This document shows, piece after piece, positions 15,110-26,390 of a stretch of 64,000 nt of DNA. The notes below the pieces were generated by a model. The model saw only the letters and a list, made by a program, of their open reading frames with translations, was not told the origin of the DNA and ran no database searches. This DNA is from Xestospongia bergquistia (Eukaryota > Porifera > Demospongiae > Haplosclerida > Petrosiidae), in NCBI GenBank assembly GCA_963965975.1, contig OZ014418.1, forward strand, positions 2,678,775 to 2,742,774. The letters are read 5' to 3'. How positions within the stretch are numbered: position 1 is the first letter of the stretch; the number at the start of each line of letters is the position of its first letter. Position numbers and translations under genes: made by a program.

Positions 15110-18100
15110 ATGGCTATAAACTCAGATGACAGCTTTGTACCTTCTACCAAGGAATATCTGGTGATACAGAAATACTTCAGTAGATTACATCATGTCATTG
15201 ATGATCCTGTAACATTAGCTATTGGTTTGTTCTCTGCTGGTCTTATCTCTGATTGGGCAATGATGAAAGCTTCTTGTGAAACCAGCTGTGTTGTTGTTAG
15301 GAATTATCACTTACTAAATGGAATGAAAGGGGCAATAGTTTGTGACCCTAACAACCTTATTAAGATCATCTCAGTGTTAGAAGACCATCCTCCATTAGAC
15401 TCAATTGCTCAAGAAATGAAGACAGACTATGGTAATTTACTCTGTTAGTAAAGCATGCTGCTGTGTAAATTGTTTGGACTAGTCTTGTAAATAAGAGACT
15501 AGATTTTGACAGTGCAAGCTTTAATGACATTATTTATTAATTAAAATCAATTGAAGTGTGATAACAGCTACTTCTAGCTATACTTTATTTTATGCATTTT
15601 TAGAATGTTATAACATTACTACATGATTTTCCACTTAAATTCCTTCTAGAGTCACCTGACTTCAGTTATGAACCATCTGTTACTCCAACAACTAGTACTA
15701 TAGACAAACAATCTCATAGTAAGTTTACATAACACCATATTTTCGTGAACATTGTCTATATATAATATGTACTATTCACTCTTTCAGAAACTGTCACAGT
15801 TGACGAAAGTGTCCATAAAGATTTGAGTATAATGCAAGGAAAATTAGGTGCTTTGGTACTTGATGTTCTAGATGTTGCTGATTCAGCTAAAATCAACACT
15901 GATAAGATAAAACAATTTCTTATCCTGTCTTATCCATTTAAAGAGTTTAAGGAAGAAATCAGAAGAGCACAAGATTTAACTGATGTATTTGTTGCAGTTC
16001 GTAAGCTTTGTTCTCCAGTTAATTTGACCATTCTAGTAGCTATTGTTGATCGTTTTAAATTGTCTGGTGCTCTAAAAAAAATTGAAGATTATGAAGTTGA
16101 AGAACAGATCTATCGTAAGAAGTTGATGAGTGCTGCATTTGCTCAAGAACTACAGGAAGAGATAAAACTAACAGGTTATACTCCTACAGTGAAGTGCACT
16201 ATCACTCTACATCTGAATTGGTCTTCACCTGAAAATTTTACAATCAAGGAGTTTGAGAAAATTGTCAAAGATGTGTTCTCTGATCTCTCTCAATATATTC
16301 ATATCATTAAAGTAGAGGCTGGTTCTATCATTGTCATTATGTGTGCTCCTGAGTCAGTCATAGGAGCACTGAGTGCAATAGCAAAGTCTAGCCTACTATA
16401 TCTCCTTGATATTGGAGTGATCTTTTTACAGGTTGGAGATGAGATTATTCTTGACAAGAAAGATAAACAGGTACTTACACATTTATATCAATTAAGGTGC
16501 ATATACCTATGTCTTTTTATCTATGCATCAATATCTATATACATTATTTATGTCACTATACCTTAGGAACCACAATATCCTAATCTAAACATCATTGACA
16601 CTCCTGGTAATGGTAATATCCTTACTCAATATGTCCCTGGAGATGACAGTTATGAAAATCCAAACCAACCAATTCCAGTATATTACTCTTCTATTATCTC
16701 AACTATCTCTCAGACAAGTTAGTAATTTTATGCAGCAATCCAAAATCTTGCTCTATTACTTTAGCAATTTCACATTGTTAGTATTGCAATACTAAGTACA
16801 CGCATTTGTATTTGCTAATATCCTTGCATTGGCTTTAAAATCATATCTGTTTATGCTGATATTAGCTAAATTTTATCATTATGTTTATGCTGTAAAAAGT
16901 AATATGATATTTTAAAAACTAATTTGTAGCTAAGTAATGCATTGATGAAATACTATGGAGTCAAGAGCTCATGTAGATTATGTACTATATTATTTTTGGT
17001 ATGTTTTACCAACAAATTGTATAGTAAGTAGTTCAAATGAACTCTAGATTCCATTGTTATCCATCTATGTAAGCTACAAATTAGTGGTTTATAAAGTATT
17101 AATTTTTACAGTGGCATGTAGCAATCCCAAAAATGTAAAACAAATTTGTTCATTTCTAATATAATTCACATAGTAGTGATGGTAGCAATATTATTTCTAT
17201 AAAGTTAATACCGTATCAATAAAACAATCGTTGCATTGCTAGAAATGCATGGGTTTGTACATATGAGCAATGCTACTGTTTTCCCTTGTTCCCTGCATTT
17301 GTCTTTTATGAGGTCAATCTATGGTCTAGTATTCATAAGTAAAACATTCCAATTATTATATTGTCAGCATATAAATGTAATATATAAGGACAATGCTGCT
17401 GCCTTCCCCTATTCCTAGCATGCTATCTTTTATAAAATGTCTGAAGGTCAATTTATTAAAAGTTCATATTTTGTCATATGTTGTTAATATTAACGATTTG
17501 GATCTTATACAATGAAGTATTGACTTCCGCTTATAGACTCCTCCAGACAATTAGTTCCTTTTATTTTAAAATTTGTAATTTAAAGTTCTTGTGAATATGT
17601 AGCAACAATTCAGTATATTATCAGCACAGTCGAATATATAATAATAAATTATTAAATAATTGATCATATATATTGTTGAAATAGCCATATCTGTGACAGA
17701 TTACATTTTAACGAAATTAGATCACAACAGTTGAACTATAATATTACAGAATCAGTATGTATGTTATTATTGAATATATCATTGATTCAACCACAGATAC
17801 ATGAGAGGAGAGGGATTGGAAATAGAAGTGAATTATACATAGATTAGTATACAGTATATGATGATTTCATCTGTGTTTTGTCTGTGTTGTATACTTTTAG
17901 TCAAATGTTGCTACATCAATAAAACAATGCAAAGTTTTAAGTCTTAAGAGATAATTATTGTAACAACATCACTTATTCTTGTATGGTATGTTAATAACTT
18001 TGCCACTAGGGTTATTAAATAAGTAGATGAATAATCATTGATGATCTTCATTATGCCAGTAGTTTATATTTGATTTCCTTTACAGCTCAACAACAACAAA

Positions 18101-21100
18101 ATCAATTGTCAAAGGATGTCACTGATAAACAAAGAGGAGATGAGGTAAGAAAAAGTAGTATTAGATAACTGTTACTACTTGTTTTGTTAATATGTCTATC
18201 TACAGGAAGTTAGAGCTCTTGCAGAAGAAATTGAAGAGTTACGAGATCAACTGGAAATACATGTACAACAAATCATTAGTGAACAACTGACTATGGAACT
18301 TGAGTCAATTGTACAACAAGGTGAAGGTATTAATTTTGTATAAGTTGTGTGTTTTAGAAGATGAAATGAAGTATTGATTTAAGGAAATATATGTACGTAT
18401 GGAAGAATTGATTAACATAAAACATTAGTCCATTCTTTAGCTCTCAAACTAAGACTAGTTCGGCTTTCATATTTTACATGTAGAAAGAAACACAATTTAG
18501 CTCACATAAATAGAAATTCATTAAATTTCTAGAAGCTGGATCTGATTCTGTCTATACAAGCAAAGTAGTTGATAAGCATCAATCAGCAGATTTTCATTGA
18601 CCAAGTAGCTGTTTTTATTTACTCAGGCACCCCACCAGTCATTAGTTAAATTGCTAAGCTATGAGGGATGTCTGAATTTTGGTGAACTTTAAAGAGGTGG
18701 AATACTTTAACCTGTCTTATGTGAAGTATTGATTGTTGTTATATTACTATAACATATTCAATATATTTTTTGTATAGCAACTAAGGAGTTATTACCAATG
18801 ACAGCAAAACAACAACATGAGATTGAAGAAATAGTTAGTTCATTGACTTTGCAATTAAGTAAGAGAGAAAGAGACAATATACAACAGAGTTTGAAAGGTA
18901 GCTTATCTCATTACCAATTATTGTCAAATTTCATTGACTACAGGCCTAGCCTTGTTATTGAAGGCTACAGAACAAGACACATCTAGTCATGGACTAAAGG
19001 GGACCCAAACCATATCTAGTAAAGAAATAGAGTCTACATCATCAATCAATAAACATACAGGTATTATAAAACAGCACTAATGGTAGGTATGTAATATTAT
19101 TAACAACATTACTTTCAAATATTGTCCTATCTATGATAACATGATCTCTACTGGTTCTAATACTTCACAACAATAACTAACAGATTTTCTTATTTTTTCA
19201 CTATGGAACAGATTCAAATTTTATTGATTCTTTTGAAAGACCAATAGTTAATACTGCTGAGAACAGTGCAGAGAGAGAGGTGAAACTAATGCATTAATTT
19301 ATATAAGATAAATTAAGTGTACTTTTTATGTTAAGATACATACAGAAAGGTATCAAGAGCAGCCTCTTCCAGTAGATAACTCTTTTGTCATTTCAACTAC
19401 TTCTCAGACAAGTTAGTAATAACAGTAGAACTACAACTATAATTAATGTCTAGTAATATATATTAAAGTACAGTCAATGTATTGTTACTTAATTTATAGC
19501 TAAACAACGACAAAGTCAACAGTCTACACTAGAGAAGAATGTCACTGATAAACAAAGAAGTGATGAGGTAAAAGATAATTTTTTGCTATTGTCTTGGCTT
19601 CAAAGTGTATCACCATGACATCAGCATGTTACAAAAAATAACAAGGATGATTGCTAGCATCAATAAAAAGTTTCATAATATGTTAATATCTACAGGAAGT
19701 TCAAGCACTTGTAGTAGAGATTGAAGAGTTAAAATATCAATTGGCAATACAACAAAATATTAGTCGAGAGAAGACTATGAAAATAGACTCTATTGAAGGT
19801 ATTTATAAACACTGTCTATTTCATTCAATGTATAAATTTCATCTATGTTTAATTACCTATTTAAATTATATTTAGTAATTAGCCATGTTTGTATCTTTAG
19901 AAAAGAGAAAAAAGATGGAAAGAGATGTTCAGAATCTAACATCACTTCTAGAAGAAAAGGAAGGTACATGAGGACAATTATTACAATTTCTTCTTTAAAA
20001 ATAGATTTTAAATGGGGTAGGATTAGTATAATGCAAACAAGGTTGTAGGTCTCATTTTGACCACTTCAGAAACAGATTTAGAGATTCCATATTCAAGCCT
20101 ATTACCTGACTTTAACTTTATTGTGCAAGTAAATGAAAACATTTTTATAAGAAATTAAGCAATATAGGGATGGTTGATATATCAATACAATACAAAGAAT
20201 TCAAACAAGATGGTAAAGATGGCAATCGTATCATCTCTATATAATAGTACTGGCATAAAATGCGACAATATATGATGTGAGTGATGGTAATAGCATTCAC
20301 TCTACATAATAAAAATCAAATGCTAATCAATTGACAAATTGCTAGTTACAAAGTAGTGTGTTTCTTGTGTATATTTTATGTAGTATAAATGCTATTGCCA
20401 TTACTGCTAAATAGATACTCATTTTATGGATCTGTTCCCTCTGTGAAAGACTACTTATTGCCTTTTAATTTAAATTATTTTGTGTGATTGGTGCCTATAA
20501 AAATAAAACAGATGACAAAAACTCAAATATGATTTTTAAATTTTTTTTTATTACTAAACCTATAATTTAGTCACTACAAATATGTTTTTCCAATGCTACA
20601 ATATATTGAGAGGCTGTGATCACTGAATTCCGTTTACATGAGATACAAACATATACCGTTAAGATATTTTGAATGGGCAATCTGAGCTATCCCTACATAA
20701 GTACTAGTAGTGCTACCAACTGCTCACATCTATGACAATTATCTCTTATTTTGTATAATATTACTAGTCTGTTACATTGAGCATTAAAGATAACACTAAT
20801 AGTAATGCTTCCTTTTAGCTAAAGAGAAAGAGCAACAACAAAAGATACTAAAACTTCAGGAGAATGTAAAATCACTTACATTACAACTAAGTAAGAGAGC
20901 TATAATTACTATTGTAATATGTAACCTACATTCAATGTTATACAATTCAAATATCATAATATGTACATAATTATATTAATTTAACTCATTGTTAATATAA
21001 TTTAACTTAAAATTTAATTTGACTACAAACATGGTATACAACAAATTCTCTTAATCTGCTGGCAAACTTCAGATATTGTTGGCGCTCCTAGTAATATTAG

Positions 21101-22132
21101 TCTCTCACAATACATCTATGAAGATGAGAATACTGAGGAGCATACAGAGAGAGAAGTGAGACTAATGGATTGATTATTTAAGATAATTAAGTGCAATTTC
21201 TATGTTAAGGTCCATACAGAAGTGTATCAAGAACAATCACTTCCAGTAGATAATTCTTTTATCATCTCAACTACCTCTCAGACAGGTTATTAATGATATT
21301 AAAAGTAAACCTATAATTACTGTCTAGATCATATATCTAAGGACCACTTACATTCTTGTGAATAATTTTGAGGTTACTATGAAGTTAATTAATAGTTTTT
21401 ATTGTGCATATATCCCATAATGAAGGTCAATAACGAATTTGTTGATGTTATTTGCAAAGACTTAATATCAATTCTATAAACTGAGCAGTTCACATAAGAG
21501 TTTAGCTATATCACTCCTAACTGTGCTCATCAATGTAGTAATGACAGATATATATGTAGATATTTGACCTCTTGTATGCCATTACAGTTTATGCAGGGTT
21601 TGCCCACTCGTTTTTTGCTTACTATGTTATTGCCTACTTAAACATCAAAGTACAGAAATACAAAGTCTGTACCACATAATACATAGTGGTTTTTTAAGCT
21701 ATTTACAAATGCATGATCTATACAAGTACAGAAACATTTTATTTTGAAAGACATAAAACAACGGAAGTCAAATACTGGTGATAAATAGACCTACAGAATC
21801 ATTTAATATCAATGAAATATGTATTACACTACTGCACAATGCATGTTTACTTAATTTATATTCAGTACATAAGTATATGGCTTTTCAGTAACCACTAAAA
21901 GACGTTACCAGCTGATGAGTAGTCTGACAATTAGTATCATACTAATCCCATTTGAAAGTTTTATCAATAAGCTTTAATTATTAAAATAATGTGGACCTAT
22001 GAAATGCCAACTTGTCATGTTGAAATATCAATGATAGCATTATCTGTAGTTTACTTGTTTGCTTACTATTTTGTTATTACCTTCAAAAATGTAAAAGCAT
22101 TGCAGGATATATATACAAATATATATTATACA

Positions 22133-22203
<71 letters not shown>

Positions 22204-24330
22204 GATTTATTTTTTTGATTTACAGCTACACAACAAGAAAGTCAACTGTCTAAACTGGAAAAGGAAAAAACTGATAAACAAAGAAGAGATGAGGTAAAGG
22301 TCAATAGTATTAGATAGCAGTTAATACTTCTTTTGTTGATATATCTACTATCTACAGGAAGTTAGAAGTCTTGTAGAAGAGAATGAAAAGTTAAGACATC
22401 AACTTAAAATGCAACGAAGAGCTAGCAAAGAACAGACTGAAGAAATAGATTCTATTAAAAAAGGTATTTCTACATCATAATAATAAGTCATACTAATTGA
22501 CCTTGATCATGATGGGAAGTCAAAATTCGGTATTTGGTTCTAGCTATCCTTATGGTTGATAATTTGTAAAAAGATGGCATTTATAGGTAAGTGCATCCTT
22601 TCAAATATATTTGTCTGAAAGCAAGTAACAGATTGGTGCCTTGTGCTATGTGTGAAAAGAGTTTATCAGAATATAGCAACTTCCTGATTTCCTTACTTCC
22701 ATTGAAAAACTATAAACTTGGAACCAGCCTAGACCTAAAAAACTCAAGCCAGTATTGGTTAAGGATGTGTACACACAAAAGCAAGAAAATATGCATCCTA
22801 AAATAAGAATCAATCAACATGTATTGTTTCTCATTTTGATTCTTGAGCAGAAGAATTAAAACAAATGATCTAGCAGCATCTGAATGTCTTTGATGCAGAT
22901 TACTTTGATTTTATAAACCATGTGCTTTGTCTGAACTATTAAATCAGTTAACAAAATTGCATACCATACTTACTGCATGAAACTCAGATTGCTACTAGTA
23001 CCATCACTTCTATAAAATTGACACATGATTCTCAGACAAAATATCATGTTCTTCATTAACAGTCAATCAATCACTGCAGATAATGTTTGAAAGGTAAAAC
23101 AGACTTTATGTGTTAATAATCAAGCTCGACTAGAGATTGACCTTGAAAACATGACAATAGTCTGCTTCAAATTTAGTGCCCAGTCTAAAGTCAGGTTTTG
23201 TAGTGTCTCACTAGAGCAAATCCAGTTATGCCACAAGTCCAATCTAAGTATGAAGAATTAGCAATAATTCTCATTGATGTTAATGAGAAACATAAGGCAT
23301 CTATAAGGAAAACCTGTGTTTATATGTCTTTGTGCTCTATTAGTAGATAGATACCTCATGTTTCTTATTTGTATTAAAGGTAATTACACATAAATTGTCT
23401 AATTACTTTTAGAATCAACAAAGCAGCAACAAGAGACTAGAAGATTACAGGAGCAATGTACATTATTGAATTTACAACTACAGGAGTATACTTCCGTATA
23501 TAAACCAACCTATCAAGATTGTCAGTATGCCACGTATGATCTCTTGATAATTGGATCATTTGGAGAAGTGTCTGATTTTCAAACACTTCAAGTTGCACAA
23601 AAACGTATACCCAATGATCAAGAAGGATCTAACCAATGGATGACAAAGGAGATTAACCTCACTAGAGAAATGTATGAATTAGACCCAAGTTGTCATCACG
23701 TTTCAGTTTGTTCAGATTTACCTGGAACAAAACATTCCAAAGATTACTACTTAGAGAAGATAAGAAACTTCCTAACTAGCTGTAAACAAGATGTAGGTAA
23801 GAGACATATATACATAAATTACTTTGATGTTACATATTAATTACCTACATTTAGCTGTTGTATGGTACACGGGTCATGGAGAAAGAAACACTGGTAATTG
23901 GTGTTTTAAAGATGGTGTCATCACCTTCCAAGATATCTTTGGTCTATATATGGATTGCTACAGAGGAAAACGACTCACAGTACAGTCTGACTGTAGCTAT
24001 TCTGGTAATTGGATCAAAGATTGTATAAGCATTCTAGATGACCTTGGTATCCCATCTTGTGGGCATTACACAAAAGAACAAGGAATATTACTCAGATTAT
24101 TCTGTTCCTGTGGTGCTAATGAAGAAGCTACTGGACTCTGTTACATTACTGAAGCTCATAAATTTGATGAAATAAATAAATTCATTATAACTTATGCTGA
24201 TAAAAAGCTCTCATCAGGACAGACTACGATATGGGGTGACTTTAGAAGAATTCGCTGTAGCAAGACAACCTCAGAGAAATGTCAAATTGACACCACGTGT
24301 ACCTGGAAGGAACATATGGCACAATACTGA
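15110..24330 (+). CDS. CARD-like / coiled-coil / caspase-like (C14) multidomain protein
   Basis: Twenty exons join in phase to 1094 codons plus stop: 15110-15431, 15650-15718, 15788-16470, 16567-16717, 18086-18144, 18206-18326, 18778-18897, 18944-19060, 19212-19279, 19336-19411, 19500-19567, 19696-19798, 19901-19963, 20819-20890, 21073-21155, 21210-21285, 22226-22293, 22358-22463, 23413-23796, 23855-24330. Residues ~10-107 have the helix pattern of a CARD (YFSRLHHVIDD, GLISDWAMM, VLEDHPPLDSIAQEM). Exon 3 codes for a helical part and an alpha/beta module (TITLHLNW, then SIIVIMCAPESV). The middle is three repeats of a linker (LPVDNSF..STTSQT), a Gln-rich exon ending DKQR.DE, and a coil exon (EVRALAEEIEELRDQLE). 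The last ~270 residues resemble the caspase/metacaspase fold, with candidate catalytic His in YTGHGERNTGNW and Cys in SDCSYSGNW. A death-fold adaptor plus protease suggests apoptotic or immune signalling; this is inferred. Substrate and activity are unknown. Confidence 0.78.
16769..17062. repeat. Dispersed repeat with fold-back core, copy 2
   Basis: In intron 4 of the caspase-like gene. It is similar to 13370-13625. The terminal 114 bp (16949-17062) form a long imperfect hairpin: TACTATGGAGTCAAGAGCTC pairs with the reverse complement of GAACTCTAGATTCCATTGTT around a TTTTACCAACAAATTG loop. Confidence 0.65.
22131..22201. repeat. (CATA)n(TA)n microsatellite
   Basis: A run of CATA units passes directly into about 40 bp of TA. 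It lies in the intron just upstream of the exon that begins at 22226. Confidence 0.95.
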
Positions 24331-24558: not shown

Positions 24559-26390
24559 TAAAAATAAACATTCGATATTACTAATAATTACAAGAGCACT
24601 TTCAGGAGATGATCTGAGATTAATTTTCCATCTACTTCCTTTGGTTTGTTGTTCTTTTATTAATCTGCTAACAACCTCTTCACATTGTTCAATAGTTGGT
24701 GAGATAACTTGAACATTCTTTATGTCATGTCTCCACTCAACTATTCTATTATTTCCTGTTATAAACAAGATATAGTGTACACATGTAATATATAGTGTTA
24801 TACATTGTACTATACAAACATTATAAATTAAGTTCTAATAAACAAATTCCAGGAATTACCTCTTAATTTGGGATCATCATGAGATAATTCTAATTTAGAT
24901 AGTTGTAGGTCTATTCAGAGTGCCCTTACATATTCCATCCTTCACCAATCTATGAAATTGTATAATATGAATTGAAATAATTTTAAATAACATGTCGACA
25001 TAATGAATGGTACCATATTAGATACATGCTTTCATAGGAAAAGTCGTGGCTATGATTACATGGTTTAACCTCAAGTACATGCTAAATTAACATTTTTATA
25101 TATGAGCAATGGAATACATAGATATTTTACTATGACACTTACCATTGATAGATACTATGGACTCTTTTTGGCTAGACTTATGAAATCCTTCATCAGTTAT
25201 TGGTTTGTGAGGCTTTTGGATAAATGCTAAATTTAGTAAAAATGTCATATAATATGAAGTAGCAATTATCTACTAATATTAGTTATCTTTCAAGCTTTGC
25301 TTTAAGTCCTCAATCTGTTTATCTCTCTCTCTCTTAATTGTAATATCAATTTTGCTATTATTTCTTGTAGTGTCTCTATCTCTCCTAGTCTCTCAGTAGA
25401 CACTGACAATAACTCTTTCTCAGTAGCTATATACAAAGAACATAAAACAAATGATCATTATATCTTATGTCTACCTTTTTTGTCTTCATCTATTTGTCTT
25501 CATCTATTTTTGTACTTCCTCTTCTTTTATTTGTATATTTTCTATAAAGACAAAACTAGTCAAGATGCATTATATATTAAATATAATAGTTATAACAGCC
25601 ACCATATAGTATAACCTTAGTGATATATCTATATTATAGTACATGTACATTTACAATATATTGGTGTTACCTTCATGTTCTCTGACAATAGAGTCCTTTT
25701 TTATTATCATTTCTCTACTGATGGTTTGTTGTAGTTCCAGTTTACTTCTTAACTCCTTAGTGTAGTCATCTACAACAGTTTTAGTCTCCTATGTACAATA
25801 CATGTAGTAATTGTTGTCTAATACTACTCATCTCTTACATCATCTCTCTGATGTGTGTCAAAAATGGATATTATAAATTTGGTCACTCCCATCTTTTTCA
25901 GCAGGTCAAGATTATTTTTTGTTGTCAATAATAGAGTGTCCATCATGTATTCTGGTGTATAGCAGGTTACAATGATAGAGTTGCATTCGTTTATGGTTCT
26001 AACTTGGACAGATTTTGCCATATCTTCAAATGCTTTTGATAACAAATCTTTTTTTGTGACTGAGTATGTGTTCATCTCTTTTCCATTCCAAAACAAACTC
26101 GATAGTCTCACAAGCGAGATAATAAGAAGACGAAGTAATTTTCAAATTTTGTTTAAGCCATTTATCAGCTCTAACATCTGCACAAAAGGTATCAATTGTT
26201 GTCTTGAATTTTGTGATGTGTGGTGGTTACCTTCTGTGATATTATAGTGATCAACAAAAGCTTCCAAACAGCAGATGTTAATAATAGCACATGTATCTTG
26301 TACCAGATCCATCACATCATCAAATGATTCAGCTGTAGCCAGTTGGGGTCTTAGCTCTCGAAAACATGCAACCTACCTCAGTAATAAGAC
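24559..26390 (-). pseudogene. Decayed paralog of the CARD/coiled-coil gene
   Basis: The minus strand holds, in order, a helical segment (about 26390-26245, LRPQLATAESFDDVMDL), the alpha/beta module (26240-25824, with SIIVTCYTPEYMMDTLLLTT), and several coil exons (25795-25678, 25430-25280, 25228-25146, 24905-24860). A final exon at 24761-24559 (NVQVISPTIEQCEEVVSRL) follows. The first two match exon 3 of the plus-strand gene. The frame shifts within the alpha/beta module near 26065-26085: the upstream part reads ETIEFVLEW in one frame, and the downstream match continues in another. A second frame break falls in a GA run near 25320-25332. No caspase-like part was found. It converges tail to tail on its relative. 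Calling it dead rests on these two breaks; sequencing error is possible. Confidence 0.55.

Follow-up and report, generated by a model that had tools for sequence, protein, structure and literature searches.

The stretch of DNA considered here (the window) comprises 64,000 nucleotides (nt) of the genome of the sponge Xestospongia bergquistia, at positions 2678775-2742774 of contig C8 (GenBank OZ014418.1). Its plus strand carries, at 15110-24330, a 20-exon gene whose product begins with a CARD-like domain and ends in a caspase-like domain, with three coil cassettes in between; judged from its sequence, the product probably relays immune signals and does not cut proteins. A first reading of the sequence (the original prediction) had described twenty exons joined in phase with proper splice sites, encoding a CARD-like start, a helical plus alpha/beta module, three repeated coil cassettes and a C14-like protease end. 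The features of the gene, in window coordinates, are as follows:

15110-15431, plus strand: exon 1, start codon and CARD-like domain (rebuilt chain; CARD profile match)
15650-15718, plus strand: exon 2, linker (rebuilt chain)
15788-16470, plus strand: exon 3, death-fold-like six-helix bundle and probable TRADD-N-type domain (AlphaFold, fold comparison, genome matches)
15805-16125, plus strand: six-helix bundle, module residues 6-112
16195-16455, plus strand: probable TRADD-N-type beta-alpha-beta-beta-alpha-beta domain, module residues 136-222
16321-16326, plus strand: Gly-Ser of the strand 2-3 turn (modelled strands; motif according to PMC8195603)
16567-16717, plus strand: exon 4, linker, with the first cassette 1 unit at its end (chain, cassette alignment)
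18086-18897, plus strand: exons 5-7 (18086-18144, 18206-18326, 18778-18897), coil cassette 1 (chain, cassette alignment)
18944-19279, plus strand: exons 8-9 (18944-19060, 19212-19279), inter-cassette spacer (chain, L023 comparison)
19336-20890, plus strand: exons 10-14 (19336-19411, 19500-19567, 19696-19798, 19901-19963, 20819-20890), coil cassette 2 (chain, cassette alignment)
21073-21155, plus strand: exon 15, spacer (chain; no match in L023)
21210-22463, plus strand: exons 16-18 (21210-21285, 22226-22293, 22358-22463), coil cassette 3 (chain, cassette alignment)
23413-23796, plus strand: exon 19, last coil, then caspase-like domain (first half)
23855-24330, plus strand: exon 20, caspase-like domain (second half), stop codon
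23875-23877, plus strand: His of YTGHG, general-base position (sequence; homolog column)
23992-23994, plus strand: Cys131, the catalytic Cys of the original prediction, invariant in 151 of 151 homologs (homolog columns)
23995-23997, plus strand: Ser132, probable nucleophile position (homolog columns; 3bij alignment)
24312-24330, plus strand: short C-terminal end (paralog comparison; public open reading frame P0089 ends alike)

Joining the exons gives a chain of 3285 nt that encodes 1094 amino acids plus a stop codon, with GT-AG boundaries at all 19 introns and exon phases that are all 0 or 1, which confirms the predicted exon structure. The chosen frame contains no stops, compared with 75 and 124 in the other two frames, and 2000 random chains of matched exon lengths drawn from 28-64 kb of the window have a mean of 76 stops and a minimum of 35. 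Because the exon boundaries were picked to hold the frame open, the absence of stops is not in itself independent proof, and support that does not depend on the frame was sought from the ratio of nonsynonymous to synonymous substitution rates (dN/dS), the order of exons at paralogs and a public open reading frame (ORF). Searches of the sponge's own genome covered a 146-Mb assembly in 21 contigs. Relative to paralogs from that genome (four for exon 1, five for each of the others), dN/dS is 0.15-0.25 for exon 1, 0.32-0.46 for exon 3, 0.33-0.42 for exon 19, where the match at locus L017 fell in an adjoining copy, and 0.16-0.33 for exon 20; over whole comparisons it is 0.27-0.41, and the gene is under constraint. 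For the coil exons, which are short and were compared with paralog L023 alone, the ratios are noisy (0.04-0.93, one undefined). Exons 5-9, 11-14 and 16 have matches in order in L023. Exon 15 has none there, the only matches of exons 17-18 are at the places of exons 11-12, and the best matches of exons 4 and 10 lie where exon 16 does, so L023 has fewer clear cassettes. The public ORF P0089 is 88% identical to the window gene and has the same short C-terminus.

The three cassettes (exons 4-7, 10-14 and 16-19) are duplicates of one another, as the original prediction held. Their pairwise alignment scores lie 16-21 standard deviations above shuffles, the matching pieces of DNA are 72-85% identical, and the encoded segments are rich in charged residues and poor in Pro and Gly. 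Exon 4 encodes the linker after the TRADD-N-type domain together with the first cassette unit, and exon 19 encodes the last coil together with the start of the caspase-like domain. Since each of these exons carries a cassette coil plus part of a flanking region, both halves of the gene are tied to the cassettes. Introns of up to 1368 nt, and the lack in the window copy and L023 of an additional C-terminal domain that most other copies read possess, could indicate instead that two neighboring genes, or a decaying copy, have been wrongly joined. The links made by exons 4 and 19 render this quite improbable, as do the recurrence of the order at other loci, the low dN/dS at both ends and the short end held in common with P0089.

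Exon 1 appears from profile comparison to be similar to CARD over the whole domain. A profile of exon 1 (ten relatives) aligned to 12 of the 13 PF00619 matches from the sponge's own genome with an hhalign probability of 92 (E 6e-7, 73 columns, score 41), and the controls were far lower, with a score of 13 for the reversed CARD profile and of at most 23 over 200 column shuffles. In Pfam, exon 1 itself receives no call; it does not reach the PF00619 cut-off, is absent from the 13 PF00619 matches of the genome, and a sequence search of solved structures with the CARD-like profile gave no relevant match.

The helical plus alpha/beta module of the original prediction is present in exon 3, although that description was incomplete. 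In the AlphaFold model, the alpha/beta part adopts the RRM/ACT-like beta-alpha-beta-beta-alpha-beta fold of the TRADD-N superfamily, and Gly178-Ser179 sits between strands 171-176 and 180-186. A tiny residue followed by Ser in the turn of strands 2 and 3 is the motif given for this superfamily (PMC8195603). The TRADD-N profile PF13820 matches 9 of 70 members of the exon-3 alignment weakly (best E 9.8e-4), and none of its 8 matches in the sponge's own genome is over the cut-off. The helical half does not match exon 1, a sequence search of solved structures with the exon-3 profile gave no relevant match, and a TRADD chain is absent among the 50 VIA rows listed for the exon-3 model, which excludes nothing. 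Based on the model, the alpha/beta module is probably a TRADD-N-type domain located behind a second death-fold-like bundle; its TRADD-N identity is supported, if more weakly than the exon structure or the cassette duplication. Copies of the module are numerous in the genome, with 150 scored matches among 505 candidates. A second module-type sequence with helical and TRADD-N-like pieces lies on the minus strand of the window at 25302-26372, tail to tail with the gene. It has coil pieces at 25302-25454 and 25651-25788, and its pieces, which are in different frames, may be exons or a decaying copy.

The C-terminal region belongs with the caspases by fold, as predicted. A structural model of a homolog has the caspase-hemoglobinase fold (clan CD), and its best Foldseek match is the N-terminal caspase-like domain of Raptor (6zpn_B, E 1.2e-5), with a TM-score by query of just 0.37. 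Raptor is a large subunit of mTORC1, carries other repeats, and uses its caspase fold for binding. At the level of sequence, PF00656 gives E 0.12 and 12.4 bits for the window domain, under the curated cut-off of 21.4, and no match when the caspase-like exons of the window are scanned alone. Homolog P0116 is above the cut-off at 21.6 bits, and homolog P0039 has weak caspase matches (NCBIfam caspase_w_EACC1, E 0.01; PADLOC caspase, E 0.044). Sequence searches of solved structures with P0116 and with the caspase-like profile gave no relevant match, and comparison of the family profile with eight caspases from the sponge's own genome was not significant. The motif is closer to those of metacaspases than to the QACxG of classical caspases, as had been proposed. 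The genome contains 99 PF00656 matches, many of them clustered on contigs C11 and C12, and the eight best retain SHG or THG plus QACRG. The DNA pattern for D-x-C-[YF]-[ST]-G-x-W occurs at 4 places in the genome. In a pattern search of viral contigs, 20 stretches matched, none of which is a relative.

Of the His/Cys pair named in the original prediction, the His is present in YTGHG, as family C14 calls for, and the Cys of SDCSYSGNW (Cys131) is probably one residue away from the nucleophile position. The evidence comes from 151 homologs, made up of 120 of 231 matches and, from a search in which a Cys132 protein was the query, 31 of 321 matches. All 151 have Cys at position 131. Ser occupies position 132 in 139 of them, with Cys there in 9, Asn in 2 and His in 1; because of the 31 homologs from the second search, the Cys132 state is if anything over-sampled. 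The nine Cys132 homologs read DCCYSG, DCCHSG, DCCFAG or DCCSAG, with the general-base His kept in four and replaced by Tyr in five. Their profile has a single match in the PDB at E<=10, the bacterial caspase relative GSU0716 (3bij), which is weak (E 0.067) and gapless, and in which the second C of the Cys132 homologs lines up with the C of DSCHSG. In cyanobacterial orthocaspases the C pocket has the consensus D(T/C/A/S)(C/S)(H/Y/R)(S/N), in which Ser is regarded as a mutation of the active site, and trypanosome MCA4, which has S instead of C, is named a pseudopeptidase (PMC7475262). The modelled strand ends at residue 130. Given the Cys132/3bij alignment, the orthocaspase consensus and the end of the strand, Ser132 is read as occupying the nucleophile position, where family C14 calls for a catalytic Cys; a very weak alignment disagrees. 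DCSYSG therefore probably carries Ser at the nucleophile site, a conclusion that is supported but, again, weaker. Motifs of the DCSYSG type should not be taken as catalytic Cys sites without a check.

Relatives have often lost the His. Among copies in the sponge's own genome, it is kept in 19 of 27 and replaced by Asn in the other 8, with DCSY in all 26 copies readable there; copies with Asn for the His of GHG and DCSY retained occur in L024, L028-L030 and L032-L034. In a quick unrooted tree of 155 rows with the trait columns masked, the presence or absence of His requires at least 22 changes and position 132 requires 8; with the trait columns kept, FastTree gives 21 and 6.

It is possible that the gene encodes an active, scaffold-activated cysteine protease, in which Cys131 would be the nucleophile, the His of YTGHG its partner, and the coils and CARD would gather chains and switch them on. 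The invariance of Cys131, the His retained in the window, the caspase fold of the homolog and the very weak profile alignment that sets Cys131 on the caspase Cys all fit this proposal. It is nevertheless unlikely, since the gapless 3bij alignment of the Cys132 relatives moves the nucleophile on by one residue, the orthocaspase consensus places it two residues after the Asp (PMC7475262), and the His has repeatedly been lost while Cys131 was kept. Alternatively, the His and Ser132 could form a working dyad in a caspase fold with a serine nucleophile. Ser132 is near-fixed rather than spread at random, and the His is kept in most homologs; however, the same change in cyanobacterial orthocaspases is counted as mutated and presumably inert (PMC7475262), and Ser stays where the His is lost, as it often is, which leaves a serine dyad very improbable.

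Because the nucleophile position probably carries Ser, the product is more likely to be a scaffold whose protease fold is dead or altered than the scaffold-activated protease of the original prediction. The reading that we favor, with moderate confidence, is that the CARD-like domain, the death-fold-like bundle, the TRADD-N-type domain, the three coil cassettes and a caspase fold bearing Ser together make up a signalling scaffold, or pseudo-caspase. The product would be cytosolic and act in immunity. An upstream death-fold partner would nucleate the CARD, the coils would multimerize the chain, and the TRADD-N domain may hold or release the flanking parts, a switch role having been proposed for the superfamily (Kaur et al., PMC8195603). 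The caspase-like end would not cleave but would bind active caspases or other partners, or act as a decoy for them.

Several findings weigh against the pseudo-caspase scaffold. An active-site neighbor need not be invariant as Cys131 is, few parts of the domain are better conserved than the surroundings of the site, which can mean that catalysis was kept, and the His (position 92) persists in the window and in 93 of the 132 homologs that are readable there. The 3bij alignment has an E of just 0.067, the very weak profile alignment to caspases of the sponge's own genome (hhalign probability 0.5) pairs Cys131 with the caspase Cys, and the search with a Cys132 protein supplied 31 of the 151 homologs. 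The tree is unrooted, and it is outside families that suggest Cys132 as the older state. For the module, the confidence of the exon-3 model is moderate only (mean pLDDT, the predicted local distance difference test, of 77), its best Foldseek match is not significant (E 0.068), and PF13820 does not match exon 3 of the window at E<=1. The unrelated FcoT profile (PF10862) matches 9 of the 70 members at E 9.2e-5, better than PF13820, and the helical half does not match the CARDs of the genome. In Pfam scans, none of the window pieces reached the cut-off for caspase, CARD or TRADD-N. A crude heptad-moment test of the coils is suggestive and weak, with 26, 101, 234 and 166 of 1000 shuffles reaching the observed value.

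In the sponge's own genome, 32 places, some of them fragments, show matches to the last 114 residues. The CARD-like exon, the module and the C-terminal domain follow one another on one strand, with no other copy between, at 7 of these places including the window and one on contig C1; within 10.5 kb of the other 25 places, the module alone is found at 7, the CARD-like exon alone at 3 and neither at 15. This count drew on all 40 exon-1 matches but on 36 of 150 for the module and 4 of 99 for PF00656, so that misses are possible. Most other copies read extend about 75 residues into the additional C-terminal domain. Similarity of the window to five of six paralog loci compared ends at 24306-24317, and L023 shares the tail to 24542. 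Relatives of the additional domain, 32-46% identical, are encoded in 15 bacterial records (L035-L049), namely ten from Wolbachia, three from other Rickettsiales, one from Candidatus Mesenet and one from an alphaproteobacterium. Their stop-to-stop ORFs span about 145-195 codons (13 of 15 read). Three that were scanned have no Pfam or NCBIfam call over the cut-off, and a Rickettsiales protein has no match among 50,697 phage records. L063 (C11:6715900-6719700) has a CARD-like exon with 84% and a module with 69% identity to those of the window; downstream of them lie further ORFs that look death-fold-like by eye, and a PF00656 match that seems to have lost the usual motifs of His and Cys. Matches at C8:1526281 and C8:1545301 have identical scores and are separated by about 19 kb, as a recent tandem duplication would leave them.

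A broader proposal, to which we give slightly less than even chances, is that a large animal family came to use the caspase fold for signalling or ligand binding without cleavage, on a single chain with CARD, a TRADD-N relay and duplicable coils, and that most other members end in the domain with relatives in Wolbachia and other Rickettsiales. If so, the caspase fold was kept and multiplied without its cutting residue in an early-branching animal, wired to CARD and TRADD-N. Such a family would offer a natural test of the roles of the caspase fold besides cutting and would bear on the early assembly of death-fold signalling complexes in animal evolution.

The original prediction considered the domain order undescribed, which does not hold, because the plan of Death-like domain(s), TRADD-N and a C-terminus that varies, caspase included, was reported for the sponge Amphimedon in 2021 (Kaur et al., PMC8195603). 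Like the window gene, the Amphimedon proteins have N-terminal death-fold domain(s), a TRADD-N domain with the Gly-Ser turn and a variable C-terminus that may be a caspase. The Amphimedon expansion numbers 357 proteins (PMC8195603), compared with 150 scored module matches of 505 candidates here. Its caspase is called a potential enzymatic effector, and PMC8195603 does not mention, in the sections consulted, triplicated coil cassettes or a caspase-like subfamily with Ser at the position of the nucleophile. No description of either was found in the literature searched, which covered few subscription papers; the overall plan was already known, and the coil cassettes and the Ser-bearing caspase-like family would be the new part. 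Cyanobacterial pseudo-orthocaspases and trypanosome MCA4 likewise have a caspase-type p20 with Ser in place of the nucleophile Cys (PMC7475262). Type 1 paracaspases and Bcl10 are reported from cnidarians and bilaterians only, and type 2 paracaspases from Porifera among others (PMC5978004). MALT1 is an active paracaspase, whereas in the window gene the nucleophile is probably absent and the exons scanned have no Ig match. A CARD, a coiled coil and a caspase-like domain cooperate in the CARD-coiled-coil/Bcl10/MALT1 complex (PMC5978004), and the window gene would have all of these in one chain.

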